DNA of 64,000 bases, taken from positions 1,870,501-1,934,500 of the forward strand of contig NZ_CP102267.1 of the NCBI RefSeq assembly GCF_025148125.1, in the 5' to 3' direction. Below are positions 15,613-26,276 of the stretch, in pieces. The notes below the pieces were generated by a model. It saw only the letters and a list, made by a program, of their open reading frames with translations. It made no database searches and was not told the origin of the DNA. The stretch's first letter is position 1. Every line of letters starts with the position of its first letter. The translations under genes were made by a program, and so were the position numbers. This DNA comes from Blautia wexlerae DSM 19850. Its GTDB lineage: Bacteria; Bacillota; Clostridia; Lachnospirales; Lachnospiraceae.

Positions 15613-15641
15613 TTGATATATTTATATTAGAATAGTAATAT
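15613..15641 (+). promoter_or_regulatory. Promoter of small RNA copy 1
   Basis: TTGATA (15613-15618) and TAATAT (15636-15641) are separated by exactly 17 bases. The start is expected near 15648. The second small RNA gene has the same layout. Confidence 0.8.
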
Positions 15642-15647
15642 TATGTT

Positions 15648-15812
15648 AACAACAGACAACAAGAGTGTCTGTTAAGCATTAAAGTAAGATGTTGTGCCAG
15701 AAAGCAGTATCTTAGTAGCTTAATATGGGTTTTACATTTACCGCAAGCTGGCTAGAGAGAAATTCTTGAAAGAAAATGTTAAAAGGCTCTGTTTGAACAC
15801 AGGGCCTTTTTA
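15648..15812 (+). ncRNA. Structured small RNA of unknown family, copy 1
   Basis: About 165 bases between a sigma-A-type promoter and a terminator hairpin (AAGGC-CTGT, loop, ACAG-GGCCTTTT). It contains no open frame of note. By eye it is about 80 percent identical to the segment at 25834-26001. Helices seen: 15652-15657 with 15667-15672, 15685-15690 with 15709-15714, and a long-range helix 15734-15739 with 15774-15779. Base changes between the copies keep these paired (see findings). It does not match any riboswitch, 6S, SRP, tmRNA or RNase P pattern I know. It lay about 120 bases upstream of the promoter of the ATPase gene before IS21 inserted. Confidence 0.8.
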
Positions 15813-15931
15813 AGTGAAAAAATTTTATTTTATTTGGATTTGCAGGAGATGACAAGCAACGAATCTGAAAAAATATACACAACTATTAGTGAATGTGTCG
15901 AATGAAAACCTTAGATAAGAATAGTAAAACC

Positions 15932-15960
15932 TTGCAGGTAGGCAAAGGGTAAGATATAAT
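15932..15960 (+). promoter_or_regulatory. Original promoter of the Septu-like ATPase gene, now stranded
   Basis: TTGCAG (15932-15937), 17 bases, TATAAT (15955-15960). A ribosome site (GAAGGTGA, 15979-15986) follows. Directly after it the IS21 element begins, and the gene that these signals served now starts at 19935. Confidence 0.75.
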
Positions 15961-16589
15961 CAATATATATTAGACAAAGAAGGTGACGCAGTGAATGCAA
16001 ATTACGCTTAAACGGAACGCCAGTTCCGCTACTGCGGAACGGCTATTCCATTTTTAACGGTACGAAGTACCGCTAGATTACATCATTCTGTTTCACGCAT
16101 ATTTATACCGTTCATCTCCAGACGATACGTATGGTGCTTATCCGTGATTCGTGTAAGACACGCATCGGCGTAGGTGTTATCGGCAAACATATCAAACCAT
16201 GTACTGACTGGAAACTGTGAGATGACTACAGTTGATTTCCTTCCATCCCTGGTGTCAAGGACTTCAAAAAGATCCCGGCATTTATCAAGATCGAGATCCA
16301 TAAGGCCAAAATCATCGATCACAAGAAGATCCAGCTTGGTCAGCTTATTCAGGTAATCCAGATTTGTGGATTTGATACGTGCCTGTTCCATTTCGCTCAT
16401 AAGAGTGTTCGCTTTTATATACTTTACACTCTTAGACTGCTTCATTGCAGTTACACAAAAAGCATTGATTAGATAAGTTTTTCCACTGGCGGAAGATCCT
16501 TGATGTTAGAATATAAATAGTACAAAATAAACATGACCATTTTCAATAAATATTATATGATAGTCATAGATCAAGAGAGGAGAATGGTT

Positions 16590-16883
16590 ATGGCAAGAGG
16601 TACAAGGTATTCACAAGAGTTTAAGGAAGATGCAGTAAGATATCGGTTGGAGCATCCTGAGATTGCGCTTCGTAAGTGTGCTGAAAATCTTGGAATTAGT
16701 GAATCAGCACTAAAGACTTGGATGAAATCAGCAAAGGAACATGAAGGAACTGTTCCTACTCGTGGTTCAGGCAATTACGCAAGTGATGAAGCAAAAGAAA
16801 TCGCACGTCTGCAACGAGAATTACGCGATACAAAGGATGCACTTGAAGTGTTAAAAAAAGCAATCGGTATTCTGGGAAAATGA
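16590..16883 (+). CDS. IS3-family transposase OrfA (HTH)
   Basis: 97 residues from the ATG at 16590, with AGGAG seven bases upstream. It has a helix-turn-helix of the transposase_8 type (YSQEFKEDAVRY, ALRKCAENLGISESALKTWM) and a leucine-zipper-like tail (IARLQRELRDTKDALEVLKKAIGIL). It binds the ends and pairs with OrfB. Its stop overlaps the OrfB start (ATGA), so coupling rather than frameshifting is the likely mode of expression. Confidence 0.88.
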   Translation: MARGTRYSQEFKEDAVRYRLEHPEIALRKCAENLGISESALKTWMKSAKEHEGTVPTRGSGNYASDEAKEIARLQRELRDTKDALEVLKKAIGILGK

Positions 16884-17803
16884 CAAAAACTCTTTACGCT
16901 GCTACATCTAAATATGTAGAAGAAATTAACAACCTGCCTGTGAAACGTCAAGTTTCTGTCAGCGGGATACTGAAAAAATTGGACGTTTCACGATCTGGTT
17001 ATAATGCATGGAAGAAGCGGGTTCCTTCGGACACGTCTATTCGTCGAACTGTTTTAAAAGAAAAAATCCAAAAGATTTATGATGATTCACATCAAAACTA
17101 TGGTGCTCCTAAAATTGCAGCTGAATTGCGGAAATCCGGAGAAACTATTACTGAAAAAACAGTGGGAAATTATATGCGTCAAATGGGAATAAAAGCGCAA
17201 TGGATCAAACCGTATACTCAAACAACCATTGATTCTGATCTAAGCCAGAAACTAAAAAATATTTTGAACGAAAAATTTAATCCAGAACATCCAGATGCTG
17301 TATGGTGCTCAGATATCACTTATATTTGGACATATGAAGGATTTGTATATCTTACCAGTATTATGGATCTATATTCCAGAAAAATCATTTCCTGGGTACT
17401 AAGTGAGACGCTGGAGGCATCTCATGTAGTAAAATGTATTGAAAAGGCAAAACAGTCCAGACATATTGAAAATCCGCTTATTTTTCATTGTGACAGAGGA
17501 TGTCAATATGTATCAGAAGCATTTCACAAGGCAACGGAAGGAATGATTCACAGCTATTCCAAGAAGGCTTATCCTTGGGACAATGCTTGCATAGAATCGT
17601 TCCATGCCCTTTTAAAACGAGAGTGGATTAATCGTTTCAAAATTTTCAATTATACTCATGCATATAAATTGATTTTTGAATATATCGAGACGTTCTACAA
17701 CACCGTCCGTATTCATAGTCATTGTGGATATTTATCTCCAAATGAATATGAGGAACAATATCTAAAAAATCTGGAAACGACTGTAACAAGCTTAGCAAGT
17801 TAA
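16880..17803 (+). CDS. IS3-family transposase OrfB (rve integrase core)
   Basis: 307 residues. An HTH_21-like region (DSHQNYGAPKIAAELRK) precedes the DDE core: aspartates in WCSDITYIW and FHCDRGCQY, and the glutamate in ACIESFHALLKRE. Length and motifs are complete, so this element is probably active. It is the youngest insertion in the island. Confidence 0.9.
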   Translation: MTKTLYAATSKYVEEINNLPVKRQVSVSGILKKLDVSRSGYNAWKKRVPSDTSIRRTVLKEKIQKIYDDSHQNYGAPKIAAELRKSGETITEKTVGNYMRQMGIKAQWIKPYTQTTIDSDLSQKLKNILNEKFNPEHPDAVWCSDITYIWTYEGFVYLTSIMDLYSRKIISWVLSETLEASHVVKCIEKAKQSRHIENPLIFHCDRGCQYVSEAFHKATEGMIHSYSKKAYPWDNACIESFHALLKREWINRFKIFNYTHAYKLIFEYIETFYNTVRIHSHCGYLSPNEYEEQYLKNLETTVTSLAS

Positions 17804-18211
17804 CAATTACATAAAAAGAGAAAATTGGTTGTATTTAATTTGTACTTTTTCTTGACATAAGACCACCTGTTACAATGAGATTCTTTCCTTCCTCTATCCA
17901 ATGGCAGGTACTCAGTCGCTCTATTGTCTGGGTATCAAGCTGACGTTCTGGACGGTAAATAGTATCGTCCAGATCCGCCGCCGGGTATCGCAGATGCGCT
18001 TCTTTCATCAGACGATTAAAGCGTTTATCTGCCCGTGCCTGCCACTCTGCATCAACCATTGATGCCATGCGTTCCATAAAAGTGTTCAGATCTGCATTGG
18101 GATCTTTCAACTGTTCTTCCAGGATATGTGCCATTTCTGGAACACGGAAACTCTTCAGACGCATGATCAGAGCCTGTTCCTGAGGTGTTAATGTAATGTC
18201 ATGGGATGAAC

Positions 18212-19781
18212 TCATTTGTATGCCTCCTTTCCACGGATGTTTGTATGGGAAGGAAGTTTTCCGGTTCCGTTTATAGCGCTGCTGGAATGATTATTCTGAA
18301 CCATGCTAAGTACTTTCTTGAAATAGGAATACTTGCAAGCATTGGCTTCTACGCATTTCTCAGCAGCCTCCTGAATCAGTCTGTGAGGAACATCTTTACA
18401 GGAATGGAGTACACCGGCACAGCTGTTGTATGCCTGTTCCTCATGCTTGGAACTGCGGAGTATCCTGTCAATAAGAGTTACCATAGATTCTCCATAAACA
18501 GATGCCCATCGTCTGTAATAAGCTCCGTCATGTGCATTCACTTCTTTGTAATACAGGTGTTCTGGAGGCATGTGATTGTCATCTGTAATGTAAAGAGGAA
18601 AATCACGGTAAGATCTTGGATGGCGGCAGATCAGCCGGTTATACTCATCACAGATCCGTATCTCCGTCATTGTAGCCTTAAGAATTGCAGGCTTCCCTTT
18701 ATTGGTATACAATACAGAATAGTAGTGGGCATCATACTCAAGGTGGTAATTATCTGGAACTTTAAGAAAGTATTTATAATCACAAAGTGTGTAACTTTCG
18801 CCTGGAAGCTGGTTCATACGCGGTTTGTCGTACTTTTCAAATCCATTCATGCGGGATTTCCGAATGTCAGATTTTTTCTGGAAAGGACTGGTTGATGTCC
18901 GCTACGATCTTTTTGACCGCAGCATTCAGAGCTTCCAGAGAGATATAAGTATCTTTCTTTAACTCTTCTACCAGATGCGTCTCCAAGAAACGCACATGAT
19001 TTTCAACTGTTGGTTTGCCTTTCGGTTTCCTTGGTGGCGGCGGCAGAACGATCGTATCATAAAAAGTTTCCAGATCTGAAAAAGCTGACTGCAGCACAAG
19101 TTTATCTTTACTATGCCTGGTAACAGCTGTTCTTAGATTGTCCGGGACAAGATATTTAGGAACTGCCCCATAATAAGACAGTGCATGTACTGTACCGGTA
19201 ATAAAATGTGGAAGTTTTTCATCCGGAAAGATCTCTGCATAAACAAGACTGCTAAAACCAAGTGTAGTTGTAAAAATGTGAACTTTCCGAAGTTCGCCAG
19301 TTGTTGTGTCCAATAGCAGTTCCGGCTGGTCGCCTACCCAGTCAATATACATCTTTTCACCAGGGATCCGTTCCACAGGCATAGATGTTTTTGAAGTACC
19401 ATAAGTATCTACCATAAAATCACGATACAGCTTATAAAACTGAGCAAGCTAGTAACCGTTAGGATGCTCTTTTTTATAATCAATCCATAGAAAACTCAAG
19501 TCAGCATGTTTTCCCATTTGGATCATCTGCTCATGTATTTTTTCAAAATCAGGCAGTTGGATATCCTTATGTCGAAGGTTTTCTTTTGGATAGATGAGAT
19601 CAACCACCTTTGAGGCTGGCATTTGCCGAAGATTATCCAATGATAAGCCTGAATCTTTGTAGCGGTTCATGATTAATGCAATCCCGCTCCGTTCGATCCG
19701 GTAACGTTTTTGTACAGAGTCATAACTGACTTTACTGAGCCGAAGTTCTATGACTCCAAGAATAGTATTGTAGTCGTGCAT
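18212..19781 (-). pseudogene. istA: IstA transposase, broken by a stop and a frameshift
   Basis: Three pieces in order: 19781-19449 (HTH part, MHDYNTILGVIELRL), 19448-18867 (DDE core: YIDWVGDQPELL, ALSYYGAVPKYLVPDNL, KPKGKPTVENHV) and 18850-18212 (C-terminal part). The first break is an in-frame TAG at 19449-19451, after which the same frame continues as LAQFYKLYRDFMVDTYG. The second is a one-base shift near 18885-18892 before SDIRKSRMNGFEKY. Two independent lesions mean that it is dead. Confidence 0.85.
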
Positions 19782-19934
19782 AATAGTTTCTCCTTTGCAC
19801 TGTGATGAATAATAGTTACATCACAATAATAAAGGAAAAACGTACCGCTTTGAGCAGAAAACGCGTACCGCTAAATCAGAATGAATGTACCGCCGATTTC
19901 AGAATAGGCGTACCGTTCGAGCAGAATTTGCACA

Positions 19935-21188
19935 GTGAAGGTCGATTTTATAGAATTAACGAATTTTAGAGGTATTCAAAAACAAAGAATCAGGTTTAAA
20001 AATAAGAATTTTGTTGCGTTGATTGGTGATAATGCTAGCGGAAAGACAACAATCCTGGAGGGAATCACAAAAGGATTTGTACCGGTATTGAGAACAATTA
20101 ATGTAGAAGCAATGAAAGAATGTGATCTGGCAAATAAGGATATAAGAAATGGAGCCAATGGCACAACAGTTACATTGGGGATAACATTGGATGGTGAAAA
20201 ATATGTCTGGACAAATAGACGTAGACTTTCATCACAGCAGCCGTTTGAAAATAATGGAGATGTAAAAGTTGAAGATGTCAAGTCTTTAAAAGAATTAAAG
20301 GCAAAATATTCTCAATGTGTTGAAGAGAGAAAGTTGCCGTTAATTCTTTACTATGGAACAGATAGGATTATACGAGAAGTGCCACAGAGAGGTCATATAA
20401 AAAACTTTCAGGTAACAGATGCACTCAGAAATTGTTTTGATAACGTTAATTATTTTAGAGATTTTTATGATTGGTTTAAGACAGAAGAAGATATTGAACT
20501 TCGGGGACTCCGAGAGAATCCAGAATATAAAAATCCTAAATTAAATTGTGTCAGAACAGCTCTGGAAAGAATGATAAAGGGCTATTCCAATTTAAGAATC
20601 GAGTTGGCACCGGCCAGAATGGTGATGACGAATGCAGATGGGGTAGATCTTCAGATTGATCAGTTAAGCGGAGGGTATAAAGCAGTCTTATCAGTTATTG
20701 CAGATATTGCAAAAAGATTGTCCATGGCGAATCCGGATTCTCAAAATCCATTAGAGGAAGATGCTGTTATTTTGATAGATGAACTAGATTTGCATTTACA
20801 CCCAAAGTGGCAGAAAGAAATAGTTGATGATTTAAAGAGGACATTTCCTAATTGCCAGTTTATTGTATCAACGCATTCACCATTTGTTATTCAGTCATTA
20901 AATGCAGAAGAGTTATTTGATATTAAAACGATGCAGTACGCAGGAGAAGAAGGCAGCTATAAAGGTTGGAGTATAGAAGCTATTCAGGAACACAAGATGG
21001 GTGTAGAACCTAAAACCGCTATTTTTAATCAGTATCTGGAAGAATTTTCATCTGCTATGGATGATGAGAACTATGAAAAAGCCAAAACACTTTATAAAGA
21101 ATTAAAAGAAATGGTGAGTCCAGGCAGCCATGAAAGCAAGATTTTAAAATTGGATATGGAGATGATTGAAGCAGATGATAAAGCTTGA
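19935..21188 (+). CDS. AAA ATPase, Septu PtuA-like
   Basis: 417 residues. Walker A is GDNASGKTT (about residues 31-39). The ABC-type signature is QLSGGYKAVLS, Walker B is AVILIDELDLHLHP and the H-loop is STHSPFVI, as in the AAA15/21 (OLD-like) ATPases. The start is the GTG at 19935. It is followed, with a 14-base overlap, by the beginning of an HNH partner, the order of the anti-phage Septu system (PtuA ATPase, PtuB nuclease). Its ribosome site and promoter were cut off by IS21, whose end now lies two bases before the GTG. Expression, if any, must come from the element. Retron-associated ATPases look alike, so the family name is tentative. Confidence 0.75.
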   Translation: MKVDFIELTNFRGIQKQRIRFKNKNFVALIGDNASGKTTILEGITKGFVPVLRTINVEAMKECDLANKDIRNGANGTTVTLGITLDGEKYVWTNRRRLSSQQPFENNGDVKVEDVKSLKELKAKYSQCVEERKLPLILYYGTDRIIREVPQRGHIKNFQVTDALRNCFDNVNYFRDFYDWFKTEEDIELRGLRENPEYKNPKLNCVRTALERMIKGYSNLRIELAPARMVMTNADGVDLQIDQLSGGYKAVLSVIADIAKRLSMANPDSQNPLEEDAVILIDELDLHLHPKWQKEIVDDLKRTFPNCQFIVSTHSPFVIQSLNAEELFDIKTMQYAGEEGSYKGWSIEAIQEHKMGVEPKTAIFNQYLEEFSSAMDDENYEKAKTLYKELKEMVSPGSHESKILKLDMEMIEADDKA

Positions 21189-21306
21189 ACGAGGGAAAAT
21201 ACCAGATGAAGTCTGTGAAGAATTAAAAAGGCTGTATGCAGAAATAGCTAATTACTTAGTGATAAATAAAAATTTGTATATGTTTTTGGTATACGACTGC
21301 CAATAA
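21175..21306 (+). pseudogene. Truncated PtuB-like HNH partner
   Basis: 43 residues (MIKLERGKIPDEVCEELKRL) with the N-terminal MIKLxR start typical of PtuB proteins, overlapping the ATPase gene. The frame ends before any zinc or HNH motif, and the 90 bases after it contain none, so the nuclease has been lost by deletion. Confidence 0.55.
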
Positions 21307-21399
21307 AAGATTAATGAACAGAATGTAATTGGATTATGTCATTATGTAAATGAGAGAGAAAAGAGGAAGGAGAAATCCATACCCAGTAAAGGACAAAGG

Positions 21400-22653
21400 A
21401 TGAATATTTTAATAATAGGAAATGGATTTGATTTGGCACATGGTTTGCCCACGAAATATGCGGATTTTTTGAAGTTTATAGATTTTTTTTACAAGCATAA
21501 GGCACAAGAAAGTTCAAGATTAGAACTGATTGCGGGAGAGGATATCCATTGCTATAAGTATTTTACAGACCTATTTAATAGCAAACAAGATTCTGAATTT
21601 GATCAGTATTTATATGATCAATCAAGAAAAACAATTCATGAGTTAAGTGATTTGTGCAAGGATAATGCATGGATTAAATATTTTTCAGAGGTGTATAAAA
21701 GCAGAGAGCAAAAAGGGAAAGACGGGTGGATTGACTTTGAAAGTGAAATTTCCCTGATTATACAGACATTCAACAGTGTAAGCAGGGATATACAAGAGAC
21801 CATACAAAAGGGAGGCGTAGGAACGGTGCTTTCACAAAGGCAATTAAACGTTCTTGCACTATTTGTGGAAAAGATGGATAGTTCATCAGGAATGGCGACC
21901 CATGTCTGGAAAAAAGAAGAAATTGACTTTTGGAAACAGAAACTTCTGGAAGATCTGAATAAACTTACACGTGCACTTGAAATTTATCTCTCAGATTATA
22001 TTAGCAATTTTATGCTGGGAAATGGACTGTCAGATATAAAAAACTTGCCATATTTGGACAAAATTTTATCGTTCAACTATACATGTGCATATCAGAGGAT
22101 ATACGGAGAACATCCGTTTTTGGAGTTTGATTATGTGCATGGAAAAGCTGATTTAAGGAATGATATCCAATCTACAAATATGGTGCTTGGAATTGATGAA
22201 TATCTGGAAGGAGATGCGAGAGATAAAGACCTCGAATTTATAGAATTTAAGAAATTTTTTCAAAGAATACATAAGGAAACAGGGGGGTTATATGAAGGCT
22301 GGCTTGAGGAAATTCAGTCTGAGAAAAAAATATATGAAATATCAGCAATCGTTAAAGAGAATGGAATAGTTAAAAAGCATCACAGAGTAGTTAAGTACCA
22401 TAAAGTTTTTATATTTGGACATTCATTAGATATTACGGATAAGGATATATTAAAAAAATTTATTTTAAACGAAAATGTTAAGATAATAATTTTTTACACT
22501 GATAAAGAGGATTATAAAAAGAAGATTATCAATCTGATAAAAATTATAGGGCAGGATGAATTGGTAAAGAGAACGGGTGGGAAAAATAAAACAATAGTGT
22601 TTCAAAAGATAAATACGTGCACATTGGAATCTGATTCCATGAGGGAAAAATAA
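21400..22653 (+). CDS. abiH: AbiH-family abortive infection protein
   Basis: 417 residues starting MNILIIGNGFDLAHGLPTKY, the signature nucleotide-binding-like N terminus of AbiH. Later landmarks are LSFNYTCAYQRIYG, YVHGKA and VFIFGHSLDITDKDIL, all conserved positions of the family. AbiH stops phage propagation in lactococci by an unknown mechanism. Full length, with a modest AAAGG site before the ATG. It is one of the few intact genes of the island. Confidence 0.85.
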   Translation: MNILIIGNGFDLAHGLPTKYADFLKFIDFFYKHKAQESSRLELIAGEDIHCYKYFTDLFNSKQDSEFDQYLYDQSRKTIHELSDLCKDNAWIKYFSEVYKSREQKGKDGWIDFESEISLIIQTFNSVSRDIQETIQKGGVGTVLSQRQLNVLALFVEKMDSSSGMATHVWKKEEIDFWKQKLLEDLNKLTRALEIYLSDYISNFMLGNGLSDIKNLPYLDKILSFNYTCAYQRIYGEHPFLEFDYVHGKADLRNDIQSTNMVLGIDEYLEGDARDKDLEFIEFKKFFQRIHKETGGLYEGWLEEIQSEKKIYEISAIVKENGIVKKHHRVVKYHKVFIFGHSLDITDKDILKKFILNENVKIIIFYTDKEDYKKKIINLIKIIGQDELVKRTGGKNKTIVFQKINTCTLESDSMREK

Positions 22654-22666
22654 AAAAGAATAAAGC

Positions 22667-22795
22667 ATGGGAAGATTTGTGAATCCAGACAATAGTGCAT
22701 TTCAGTTTGCTCTGAATTCCAGAATATATGTGGATAAGACAGATATTGTTAGTATGCACGATGGAGAAAGAGATGAAGAAATGTCTTGTCAATGA
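22667..22795 (+). pseudogene. Remnant of a PF09820-type predicted AAA-ATPase
   Basis: 42 residues beginning MGRFVNPDNSAFQFALNS..IYVDKTDI, which is the invariant start of the large 'AAA-ATPase-like' proteins abundant in Lachnospiraceae. The frame then collapses before the Walker region. From here to 22940 no gene is visible. Confidence 0.6.
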
Positions 22796-22940
22796 TTGAC
22801 AATCGGTAGTATATCTGCTATATTAAGACATATATCTGAGAAAAATCGTTAACCGTTCGGTTATTTAATTTCCCTGTGTGACAATATGATAGAAATGATA
22901 TTCAGAAAAACATGACATATTAAAAGTAAAGGGTGATAAG

Positions 22941-25058
22941 ATGCTTACAATTGTAAATGGAGTTACATCTAAACAGGTGCTTGCAAATGAAATTATAAAT
23001 CTTTTGGAAACAATGGGATTAGACGGATATTTTTATTTGGGCTACCCTGTTTTAGGGGGAATTGATGGAAAAATTAAAGTTGATGCATTGTTAGTGAGCG
23101 AACAGACGGGTATTGTGCTTTTTGATCTGGAAACATTAGCAGAAGAAAATATGGAAGATAAAATTCAGTTATTGGATGAACTATATAATAATATGGAAGC
23201 CAAGCTGAAAAGATATGGATATCTGTCAAAAAGACGAGTTTTACAAGTGCCGATTAATGTACTGTCTTATGCACCCCTTTATAAAACGAAGAGTGATGAA
23301 ATTTGTACATCAATAGAAGAAGTAAAGGAATATTTAGAAAGTCTGGAATGGAAACAGGGCGAAGAATATTATAAGAAATTACTGGAAGCGATTCAGATGA
23401 TTTCACAACTGAAAAAAAGAGGTGGCAGAAAAAATCTTCAGAAGGCTTCGTCAAGGGGATCAAAATTAAAAGCAATTGAAGACCAGATTTCCTGCCTGGA
23501 CAAGTATCAAAGTAAGGCAGTCATTGAAACGGTAGAAGGTGTTCAACGAATCCGGGGTCTGGCAGGATCGGGAAAAACAATTGTTCTGGCATTAAAGGTA
23601 GCATATCTGTATACTATGTATGAAAATAAGATGATAGCAGTTACATTTAACAGCCGGGCATTAAAGGGTCAATTTATTCAACTGATCACAAACTTTATTG
23701 TTGAAAATACAAATGAGGAACCTGATTGGAGCAGAATTAAAATAATTCATGCATGGGGAAGTAAAAATTCATAAGGTCTGTATTTCAATTTTTGTAAGGC
23801 AAATAATCTAGTTTGTTATGATTATATGGATGCGTGCCAGAAATATGGAAGAAATTCATCTGCTTTTGACAGAGTATGTGAAGAAGCCGTAGAATCAGTA
23901 ACGAATCCCCAGCCATTGTATGATGTGATTTTAGTAGACGAAGCACAGGATTTTTCAAAATATTTTCTTCAGATGTGTTATATGTCACTCCCACATGAAA
24001 GCCGTATGCTTGTATATGCATATGATGAACTCCAAAGCCTGGATAACAAAAACGTTGAATCTCCGGAAGACATTTTTGGATACAGTAATGGACGGCCGAA
24101 TGTAGTGCTTGATAACAGTAATGGTAAGGCGGAGGATATTGTCTTATCAAAATGTTATCGTAATTCAAGACCAGTTCTTATTACAGCACACAGCCTGGGA
24201 TTTGGAATTTACAGAAAAAAAGAGGCACGGGAGGAAACATCGTTAGTTCAATTATTTGAAGATAAACAGTTATGGGAAGATATTGGATATACAGTGAAAG
24301 AAGGTGTGATCAGAGATGGAGAATTTGTAACGCTATATAGAACAGAAGAAACAAGTCCTGCATTTTTAGAGGATCATTCGTCAATTGACGATCTTATACA
24401 ATTTAGAAGATTTGAAAATAATGTACAGGAAGCGGATTGGATAGTTGAAGATATCGAAAAAAATCTGCATGATGAAGAATTAAGATATCAGGACATTATG
24501 ATCATTCACCCTGATCCCAAAATTACGAAGAGTTACGTGTCACATATCCGTGTTAAATTAATGGAAAAGGGAATTAAATCGCATATTGTTGGGGTACAGA
24601 CAACACCAGATGATTTTTTTCAGGAGGATTCTATTGCAATCTCTCAGATTTACAGAGCAAAAGGAAATGAAGCAGCAATTGTTTATCTGATAAATGCGGA
24701 TCTTTGCGCAAGAGGCATCAACTTATCAAGAAAACGAAATATTATATTTACTGCTATGACAAGATCGAAGGCATGGGTACGGGTTAGCGGAATCGGAGAT
24801 GATATGGATCTGTTAATACAGGAGTTTAACAGCGTTAAGGAAAGGAATTTTCAATTAGAGTTCACGTACCCGGACAAATCACAACGAAAGAATATGAGAA
24901 TTATTCATAGAGACATGACTCAAAATGAATTAAGAGATATCAGAAAAAGCAATTCTAATCTGGCGGATATTACCAGTAAACTTGCAAATGGAGAAATTCG
25001 AAAAGAAGATTTAGATGAAGATACTGTGAATCGCTTAAAGGATGTGCTGTATAATTGA
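22941..25058 (+). pseudogene. UvrD/Rep-like helicase with NERD-like N terminus, split by one stop codon
   Basis: One frame of 705 codons interrupted only by TAA at 23772-23774; the reading continues unbroken as GLYFNFCKANNLVCYDYMD. The N-terminal 170 residues resemble a NERD-type nuclease fold (KVDALLVSEQTGIVLFDLE), but the expected lysine after the glutamate is absent. Walker A is RGLAGSGKT (near residue 203), motif II is VILVDEAQDFS and motif VI lies in IIFTAMTRSKAWVRVSG. It is a superfamily 1A helicase. An AAAGGGTG site precedes the ATG. The gene is otherwise undamaged, so the stop is recent, is read through, or reflects a sequencing error. It is followed at once by a DUF2290 gene. Confidence 0.8.
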
Positions 25059-25708
25059 AAGAACAAGAAAAAGTATTTCGAGAGTTAAAGAAAGTTACAA
25101 GGGAATTGATCAGATGTGGACTGGCAGAAGAATATAACTATCCTGTAATTCAACAAATGGATATTGTATGGGAAAAATATCAAAATATTTCGTTATATTT
25201 AAGGAATATGGATTACAGTACAATTTATGATGAAATAGAAAAAAATCATAATTATAATGTTAAATTGCCAGATGGCGGTATCATACAGTTGATGTATCGC
25301 TTTAATAGAACGGGAAAAGAATTGATTTCGCACAGATTGGGGTATTATCCATCACCGTCGTATGAACTTTATCAGAATGATCCGGAATTATACGATGTTG
25401 ACTATATTTACGGAGATATTTTAAATAAATCTGTATTGCCTGTGATTATTCGAGCTGATTACAATCGAGATCCGGAGGAGAGCGAACTGCATCATCCATA
25501 TTCACATATTACTTTAGGGGGATATAAAAATTGTAGAATTCCTGTAGATCGTCCAATATCACCGATGAAATTTGTGAAATTTATTATGGAACATTTTTAT
25601 TATGTTCCGAGTTCACAGTTGGAATTCAATTTTGAAATTGAGGGTATAGTAGCTTTCGAAGAACATATTGCAGAAAAAGACATAAATAAGAGCAGAATAA
25701 TAGTATGA
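25055..25708 (+). CDS. DUF2290 protein, partner of the helicase
   Basis: 217 residues. The first 80 are helical. The core has YYPSPSYELY, then a stretch with HHPYSHITLGGYKNCRIPVDRPISPMKFVKFIMEHFY; the histidine-rich H-x-H turn and the 'P-isPmkFv' segment fit DUF2290. It starts with TTG overlapping the helicase stop codon, a sign of translational coupling. DUF2290 has no known function; location beside a helicase in a defence island suggests an accessory or effector role (inference). Confidence 0.65.
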   Translation: MKEQEKVFRELKKVTRELIRCGLAEEYNYPVIQQMDIVWEKYQNISLYLRNMDYSTIYDEIEKNHNYNVKLPDGGIIQLMYRFNRTGKELISHRLGYYPSPSYELYQNDPELYDVDYIYGDILNKSVLPVIIRADYNRDPEESELHHPYSHITLGGYKNCRIPVDRPISPMKFVKFIMEHFYYVPSSQLEFNFEIEGIVAFEEHIAEKDINKSRIIV

Positions 25709-25798
25709 AAATGGAGAATGAAATATGGAAATTGTTAGAGAATCTATATTCATACAAACAGCTATAAAATTATAGTGTAAATTATAGTAGAAAAGTAA

Positions 25799-25827
25799 TT
25801 GACATATTCATGGTGGCAAGTTAATAT
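25799..25827 (+). promoter_or_regulatory. Promoter of small RNA copy 2
   Basis: TTGACA (25799-25804), 17 bases, TAATAT (25822-25827). The expected start is at about 25834. Confidence 0.85.
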
Positions 25828-25833
25828 AATATT

Positions 25834-26001
25834 AACAACAGGCAACAGGAGTGTCTGTCAAGCGTTGAAGTAAGGTGTTGTGCCAGGAGGCAGTGCCTTA
25901 CCAGCTTTATAAGGGTTTAGCATTTACCACAATCTGGCTAGGGAGCAAAAGCTCTCAAAAGAAAATGCTGGGAGGCTCTGCCAAGTGCAGGGCCTTTCTT
26001 A
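25834..26001 (+). ncRNA. Structured small RNA of unknown family, copy 2
   Basis: Homologue of the RNA at 15648-15812, same strand and same promoter layout. Helices: acaggc with gtctgt, TAAGGT (25871-25876) with TGCCTTA, GCATTT (25920-25925) with AAATGC (25963-25968), a 6-bp hairpin GGGAGC-AAAA-GCTCTC (25941-25956) inside the long-range helix, and a terminator (CTCTGC..GCAGGGCCTTT). About 168 bases long. The only overlapping open frame (25875-26057) runs across all helices and the terminator and is not credible as a protein. Confidence 0.82.
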
Positions 26002-26056
26002 ATTTTATTATGAAAATAAAGGGAGTTGCGGAAAATATAGATGAGAACAGTTGTTG

Positions 26057-26218
26057 ATTGTGTATCATCATTTATTCCTCTCTTATCAACAATCAACAGA
26101 GTATGAAATTGTTCTGGGAAGAAAAAATGTTGCGGTTAAACTTATAATAACGTTTGATAAGAAGGACTGTTTTCATTTGATGGGATTACAGGATTACATA
26201 TATTATACGACAGATTGA
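26057..26218 (+). pseudogene. Remnant of a PBECR4-like domain protein
   Basis: The frame reads TEYEIVLGRKNVAVKLII and then FDKKDCFHLMGLQDYI before a stop. The 'F-HL-G-Q' signature after a charged strand is typical of the PBECR4 nuclease-like domain found in Firmicute mobile elements. No start or upstream half remains. Confidence 0.4.
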
Positions 26219-26238
26219 AAAAAGATGTAAAATAGCAA

Positions 26239-26276
26239 GATTGCCTGATGGAAAATATTTATTCCATCAGGCAATC
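26239..26276. terminator. 13-bp perfect hairpin
   Basis: GATTGCCTGATGG and its exact complement flank a 12-base AT-rich loop. It lies between the rightward wreckage and the leftward DUF6219 gene and could end transcription from both sides. No T run follows. Confidence 0.5.

Follow-up and report, generated by a model that had tools for sequence, protein, structure and literature searches.

In the type III toxin-antitoxin systems ToxIN, CptIN and TenpIN, a promoter is followed by a pseudoknotted RNA, a terminator and then an RNase gene (PMC5086642). A second report (PMC12373285) presents AbiF-RCd22 of Clostridioides difficile (Rfam abiF motif RF03085) as a system whose RNA antitoxin acts in trans. 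We analyzed a 64,000-nucleotide (nt) stretch of Blautia wexlerae DSM 19850 (contig NZ_CP102267.1, positions 1,870,501 to 1,934,500), referred to below as the window, in which two related RNA genes (copy 1, 15613-15812; copy 2, 25799-25998; positions are those of the window) were identified as drum RNA (Rfam RF02958). It is likely, judging from comparative sequence analysis, that drum RNA is the antitoxin of a type III-like toxin-antitoxin module, in which a protein of the PBECR4 family would be the toxin.

The drum motif is reportedly one of 224 motifs presented by Weinberg and colleagues in 2017. Its k-turn folds in magnesium (PMC8191799). The literature passages covered, which did not extend to the 2017 discovery paper, contain no stated function for drum and no linkage of it to PBECR4. 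In a broader literature search (subscription journals, preprints and the discovery paper being outside its scope) the term PBECR4 was not found, the matches listed for drum RNA or RF02958 dealt with RNA folding and Rfam, and none of the matches listed treated drum as an antitoxin.

Both copies match RF02958 over the full length of the model, with scores about twice the cut-off (Table 1), which overturns the statement of a first-pass annotation of this DNA that the RNAs belong to no known class. Each gene comprises a match to a sigma-70-type promoter, a 5′ hairpin, the drum core and a terminator hairpin, and transcripts would start near position 15648 (copy 1) and near 25834 (copy 2). The two copies share 77.5% identity over 182 nt (E 3e-36), close to the 80% estimated earlier by eye; a search of the whole window revealed no third copy, and the genome contains exactly these two drums. 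The promoter layout pointed out by that annotation was found as consensus matches, although hexamer matches of this kind also occur in shuffled sequence (means of 1.4 and 1.0 per region). A consensus terminator scanner lists the terminator of copy 2 only; that of copy 1 rests on its fold and the T run.

We collected 86 drums listed in other genomes (four of them scoring under the Rfam cut-off), which, together with the two window copies, gave a set of 88 in 71 genomes. The drum fold was evaluated in an alignment of 57 drums, aligned by sequence only, with a structure based on copy 2 together with the Rfam consensus. This structure consists of helices P1 to P4 and two pseudoknots, and 84.8% of its cells are paired. 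When the partners were slid by 1-3 columns, the value fell to 34-42%, a control that is biased towards the structure because of the way in which it was drawn. The covariation score was 0.564, compared with a shuffled mean of 0.243 (none of 500 shuffles as high), and 441 cells were changed on both sides, compared with a shuffled mean of 155; the earlier claim that covariation reflects a selected fold is thereby upheld in a wider alignment. The P2 loop (core positions 23-27) forms a pseudoknot with positions 75-79, in which 94.0% of the cells are paired and each of the five pairs is changed on both sides. Two sub-cut-off drums (G375:C14 and G249:C3) and near-duplicates were left out of the structural alignment (A5), and of the 68 rows that remained another 12 were removed by hand; since this manual step could flatter the result, the count was repeated with every one of the 82 distinct rows among the 88 drums, and gave 84.1% of cells paired and 94.1% for the loop pseudoknot.

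Copy 2 forms 35 of 36 drum pairs and copy 1 forms 32 of 35, the median row having 31. Two base-pair exchanges that had been reported between the copies were recovered in the drum fold of copy 2: A15689-T15710/G25875-C25896 corresponds to pair 16:37 of P2, and A15734-T15779/G25920-C25968 to pair 61:109 of P3. A helix of at least 6 pairs occupies the position of the 5′ hairpin in 76 of the 88 drums, compared with 41% of shuffles. Drum was a single unit in every locus that was read, not the tandem repeat of type III RNAs.

The open reading frames directly 3′ of the drums revealed a recurrent partner. In BLAST comparisons they formed one family of 56, the other groups, among those listed, being singletons, and five diverse members of this family matched PBECR4 (Pfam PF18813) with 62.9-132.3 bits, against a curated cut-off of 27. 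Pfam describes PBECR4 as a Barnase-EndoU-ColicinE5/D-RelE-like nuclease, and it is from this family name that the proteins are predicted to be toxic endoribonucleases; residues His43 and Gly46 are invariant in 21 diverse members. A profile built from 42 family members, applied to the same strand within 1.5 kb downstream, detected PBECR4 genes or pieces of them after 64 of the 88 drums (45 intact, 19 broken or partial), or, counted by genome, in 57 of 71. Of the remainder, 22 drums had no trace of PBECR4 and two lay at a contig end. In the 45 intact cases the match begins 40-93 nt after the drum core. The 35 control regions taken from these genomes, each at most 20 kb long, contained no PBECR4 match. 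Within 5 kb of a drum, PBECR4 is the most widespread family (51 genomes), followed by ABC-type ATPases (19 genomes).

A terminator-like hairpin lies directly before most PBECR4 genes. At three settings, the loosest given first, it was found before 40, 40 and 28 of 41 drum-linked genes, before 19, 17 and 13 of 22 other full-length PBECR4 genes, before 27, 15 and 16 of the 155 control genes that are preceded by a gap of at least 150 nt, and before 72, 45 and 42 of all 561 control genes. One locus (L110) fails every setting, another (L131) was omitted from the 42 linked genes, and a gene behind a divergent drum (L259) is counted among the 22. A separate, stricter scan gave 21 of 41, 11 of 22 and 35 of 561 (all controls). 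The drum family has the type III layout, i.e. an RNA gene, a terminator and a gene in the toxin position, all on the same strand.

In the window itself, the remains of a PBECR4 gene, with a frameshift and a large internal deletion, lie directly downstream of copy 2, beyond the defence block drawn in the first-pass annotation. The segment from copy 2 onward (25799-26190) shares 95.9% identity with an intact drum-PBECR4 unit (L138) in a genome of another genus (G680), and positions 26196-26239 match the far end of the PBECR4 gene of that unit. This relic was scored with the custom family profile. Copy 1 has no PBECR4 trace by the same profile on the same strand within 1.5 kb downstream. At four other loci (L136, L140, L153 and L115:6098-6207) all that remains of PBECR4 after drum is its C-terminal part, as if the beginning of the gene had been lost in an internal deletion that left the RNA untouched. 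Pairing in drums that lack a PBECR4 trace (mean 0.831; 23 rows) is as good as in drums with PBECR4 (0.842; 59 rows), which speaks for function or for recent loss, and indicates that the RNA can be kept once the protein is gone.

PBECR4 genes also occur without a listed drum. When 200 genomes of the taxonomic family were searched with PF18813, 39 of them yielded a total of 50 matches, and 15 of these loci (16 matches) coincide with drums already listed. The DNA upstream of the other 33 loci contains RNAs that we assigned by eye to kinds B (10 loci), C (4), D (5) and E (2, with a drum-like 3′ part), the divergent drum of L259 (43.0 bits, right at the cut-off), other RNA-like leaders (4, one of which, L258, failed the terminator scan) or nothing clear (7). 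Rfam scans upstream of PBECR4 gave nothing above the cut-off at the loci scanned (9 of the 10 of kind B, 2 of 4 of C, 2 of 5 of D and both of E). In the consensus fold of kind B (8 of the 10 loci), 19 of 35 predicted pairs had one or more kept changes on both sides, as did 7 of 43 in that of kind D (5 loci). Upstream of one PBECR4 gene (L224), the kind B RNA includes a 54-nt unit in 2.1 tandem copies, as would be expected if it were a classic type III antitoxin. The RNA kind follows the PBECR4 protein clade: in a quick tree of 64 proteins, which omits truncated proteins and loci without a clear RNA, it changes six times for seven groups, which is the minimum, while shuffled kinds required 20.3 changes on average and none of 200 shuffles was as low.

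The genome of the window contains two further PBECR4 genes (L268, G000:C1:2213613; L253, G000:C1:2799401), both behind a kind C RNA; that of L253 encodes just 145 amino acids (aa). A Clostridiales-1 RNA (RF01699, 126 bits) was found downstream of a kind E PBECR4 gene (L265:5601-5753).

The module is also carried by plasmids. A tblastn search (E up to 1) recovered PBECR4-like proteins from 23 plasmid records, of which 19 are from Enterococcus. A drum above the cut-off lies immediately upstream of 13 of 16 plasmid PBECR4 genes examined, although the drum scores suggest about three distinct sequences, and hence fewer than 13 independent cases. No drum accompanies the plasmid genes of Planococcus, Heyndrickxia and Salmonella; the latter two (L284 and L285) have a similar terminator-bounded leader of another kind, recognized by eye, for which Rfam gave nothing above the cut-off. 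A DNA search located drum on a large Lachnospira eligens plasmid as well.

In the proposed module, the promoter would drive drum RNA, and the terminator behind it would stop most transcripts, leading to an excess of RNA, while rare read-through past the terminator would supply the PBECR4 mRNA. The pseudoknotted RNA would bind the nuclease and hold it inactive. Should the RNA supply fail, either through loss of the element or through an infection that halts transcription, the toxin would act. Both RNAs of the window look like antidotes that have outlived their toxins, to judge from the DNA around them. The role of a toxin-antitoxin component, which the first-pass annotation had listed among several candidates, is the best-supported one.

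The same data can be read differently. Drum might be a cis-acting leader (an attenuator or a riboswitch) that governs read-through into the PBECR4 gene, without any function in trans; the fixed position of drum upstream of PBECR4, with a terminator between them, is an arrangement shared with leaders that attenuate transcription. We regard this as unlikely, since the 22 drums without any PBECR4 trace still keep the fold, a window copy retains its promoter, fold and terminator before a wrecked PBECR4 gene, and the terminator is a separate hairpin that has no strand in common with the drum helices, except for its foot in copy 2. Still less probable is a role of drum as guide, cofactor or substrate RNA of a PBECR4 effector. 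A single protein family paired with different RNA kinds in different clades is also seen in RNA-guided or RNA-templated systems, but conserved blocks and helices span the entire drum core, in which no variable guide-like stretch was seen, and orphan drums persist without PBECR4. The gene order, the even spacing, the terminator, the pseudoknot, the RNA kinds that follow protein clades, the carriage by plasmids and the presence of RNAs beside broken genes together fit a type III-like toxin-antitoxin module better than a leader or a cofactor.

A further reading is that both copies belong with the defence genes they enclose (AAA ATPase, AbiH, helicase-DUF2290). It draws on their position, on the adjacency of copy 1 and the ATPase gene, which recurs in a second genome, and on three Enterococcus faecalis plasmids (L272, L281 and L282), where an AbiH gene directly follows drum-PBECR4. 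We consider it highly improbable. PADLOC models (E 1e-10) from 22 families matched near drum and from 37 in controls, i.e. there was no excess of defence models in this comparison (of 100 of the 312 drum neighbours with 100 of the 616 control genes, matches being counted per family and not per protein); among the Pfam families listed for the same two gene sets (25 of 117 and of 160), no class of neighbour stands out. No BLAST relatives of the AbiH, helicase and DUF2290 proteins of the window were found among the genes at the other drum loci retrieved, and the commonest neighbour of drum is PBECR4. On these samples a link of drum to defence islands was rejected, and the earlier suggestion of a tie to defence genes is not supported as a rule.

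If drum is an RNA antitoxin, the PBECR4 proteins may, more tentatively, be the toxins of a large and so far unnamed RNA-antitoxin group on the chromosomes and plasmids of Bacillota, with clade-specific structured RNAs that would include drum and at least three other kinds (B, C and D); orphan drums might then be kept as a protection against incoming drum-PBECR4 elements. The distribution of drum is sporadic: it was found in 4 of 61 genomes of near relatives, and the figures for wider samples were 21 of 392 (order), 36 of 397 (family), 19 of 391 (class) and 3 of 398 (phylum); the samples overlap, and each of them counts the genome of the window. Four near-identical orphan drums of one genome (L176, L178, L180 and L181; G977), three of them near contig ends, have common upstream DNA, which is also present at an orphan drum of another genome (L185; G763); this looks like a repeated element carrying drum without PBECR4. 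A link to phages was considered and dropped, as a phage collection gave no match to the DNA of copy 2 or to two PBECR4 proteins, and viral contigs gave no exact match to the drum pattern. Two viral predicted structures resemble the PBECR4 model (TM 0.68 and 0.64).

The features of the two window copies and their immediate neighbours are collected in Table 1. An IS21-type insertion separates copy 1 from an ATPase gene. An orphan drum of genome G680 (L147) is 89% identical to copy 1 over 255 nt and is followed, without the insertion, by an AAA_15 ATPase gene 90% identical to that of the window, which points to a common history of the two in both genomes. It is possible, from this arrangement, that orphan drum and AAA_15 ATPase form a second partnership, or that one is a hitch-hiker. 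The label "Septu-like" given earlier to this ATPase is not established by its Pfam match, and no PADLOC scan of the protein was made. An AbiH gene (21400-22653) lies between the two drums. The helicase partner of DUF2290 is split, segments 22941-23774 and 23826-25058 matching successive parts of one PADLOC helicase model; this helicase gene (22941-25058) is probably broken.

Table 1. Coordinates of the two drum RNA genes of the window and of neighbouring features.
Feature	Position	Strand	Evidence
Copy 1, promoter-like hexamers (TTGATA-17-TAATAT)	15613..15641	+	consensus match only
Copy 1, 5′ hairpin	15648..15674	+	fold -8.6 kcal/mol, z -2.4
Copy 1, drum RNA core (111 nt)	15674..15784	+	Rfam RF02958, 85.6 bits, cut-off 43
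Copy 1, intrinsic terminator	15784..15812	+	fold -13.1 kcal/mol, z -3.6, then T run
IS21-type insertion (IstB) with nested IS3-type transposase, between copy 1 and ATPase gene	about 15996-19934		
AAA_15 ATPase gene, formerly directly downstream of copy 1	19935..21188	+	Pfam AAA_15/AAA_21
Copy 2, promoter-like hexamers (TTGACA-17-TAATAT)	25799..25827	+	consensus match only
Copy 2, 5′ hairpin	25834..25860	+	fold -7.0 kcal/mol, z -1.6
Copy 2, drum RNA core (114 nt)	25860..25973	+	Rfam RF02958, 90.8 bits, cut-off 43
Copy 2, intrinsic terminator	25970..25998	+	fold -19.6 kcal/mol, z -4.1
PBECR4 gene remains (frameshift, large internal deletion)	26041..26239	+	profile match in 26045-26215, E 8e-13

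Because drum is linked strictly, and at an even spacing, to a single family of predicted nucleases, a two-component hypothesis can be put forward for it that is testable by one plasmid experiment. If it is true, it adds a new kind of toxin to the RNA-antitoxin systems, predicts a role for several RNAs outside Rfam that precede PBECR4 genes, and assigns a role to the "PBECR4 domain-containing protein" of enterococcal plasmids.

Drum-PBECR4 resembles the type III systems ToxIN, CptIN and TenpIN in its layout, in its predicted RNase gene and in its carriage by both plasmids and chromosomes. It differs from them in that drum is one unit of about 110 nt, whereas their RNAs are built of 34-50 nt repeats, although tandem repeats can occur in the kind B RNAs that accompany other PBECR4 genes. 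The predicted toxin is PBECR4; a profile search of PDB sequences listed one unrelated chain (E 1.3) and no ToxN, and the fold comparison was weak. Because drum is not a tandem repeat and no kinship with ToxN was seen, we do not file drum-PBECR4 under ToxIN, CptIN or TenpIN. In contrast to the type II toxins of the BECR fold (RelE, HigB and BrnT), PBECR4 has an RNA gene, and not a protein antitoxin, as its conserved partner, and its proteins (about 190-220 aa) contain helices between the first strands and the rest. In AbiF-RCd22, too, an orphan Rfam motif precedes a protein gene and is separated from it by a terminator; drum-PBECR4 differs from that system in the toxin family (Abi_2 in AbiF-RCd22) and in the RNA, RCd22 having two motifs. 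AbiF-RCd22 serves as a precedent, its orphan Rfam motif having turned out to be an RNA antitoxin.
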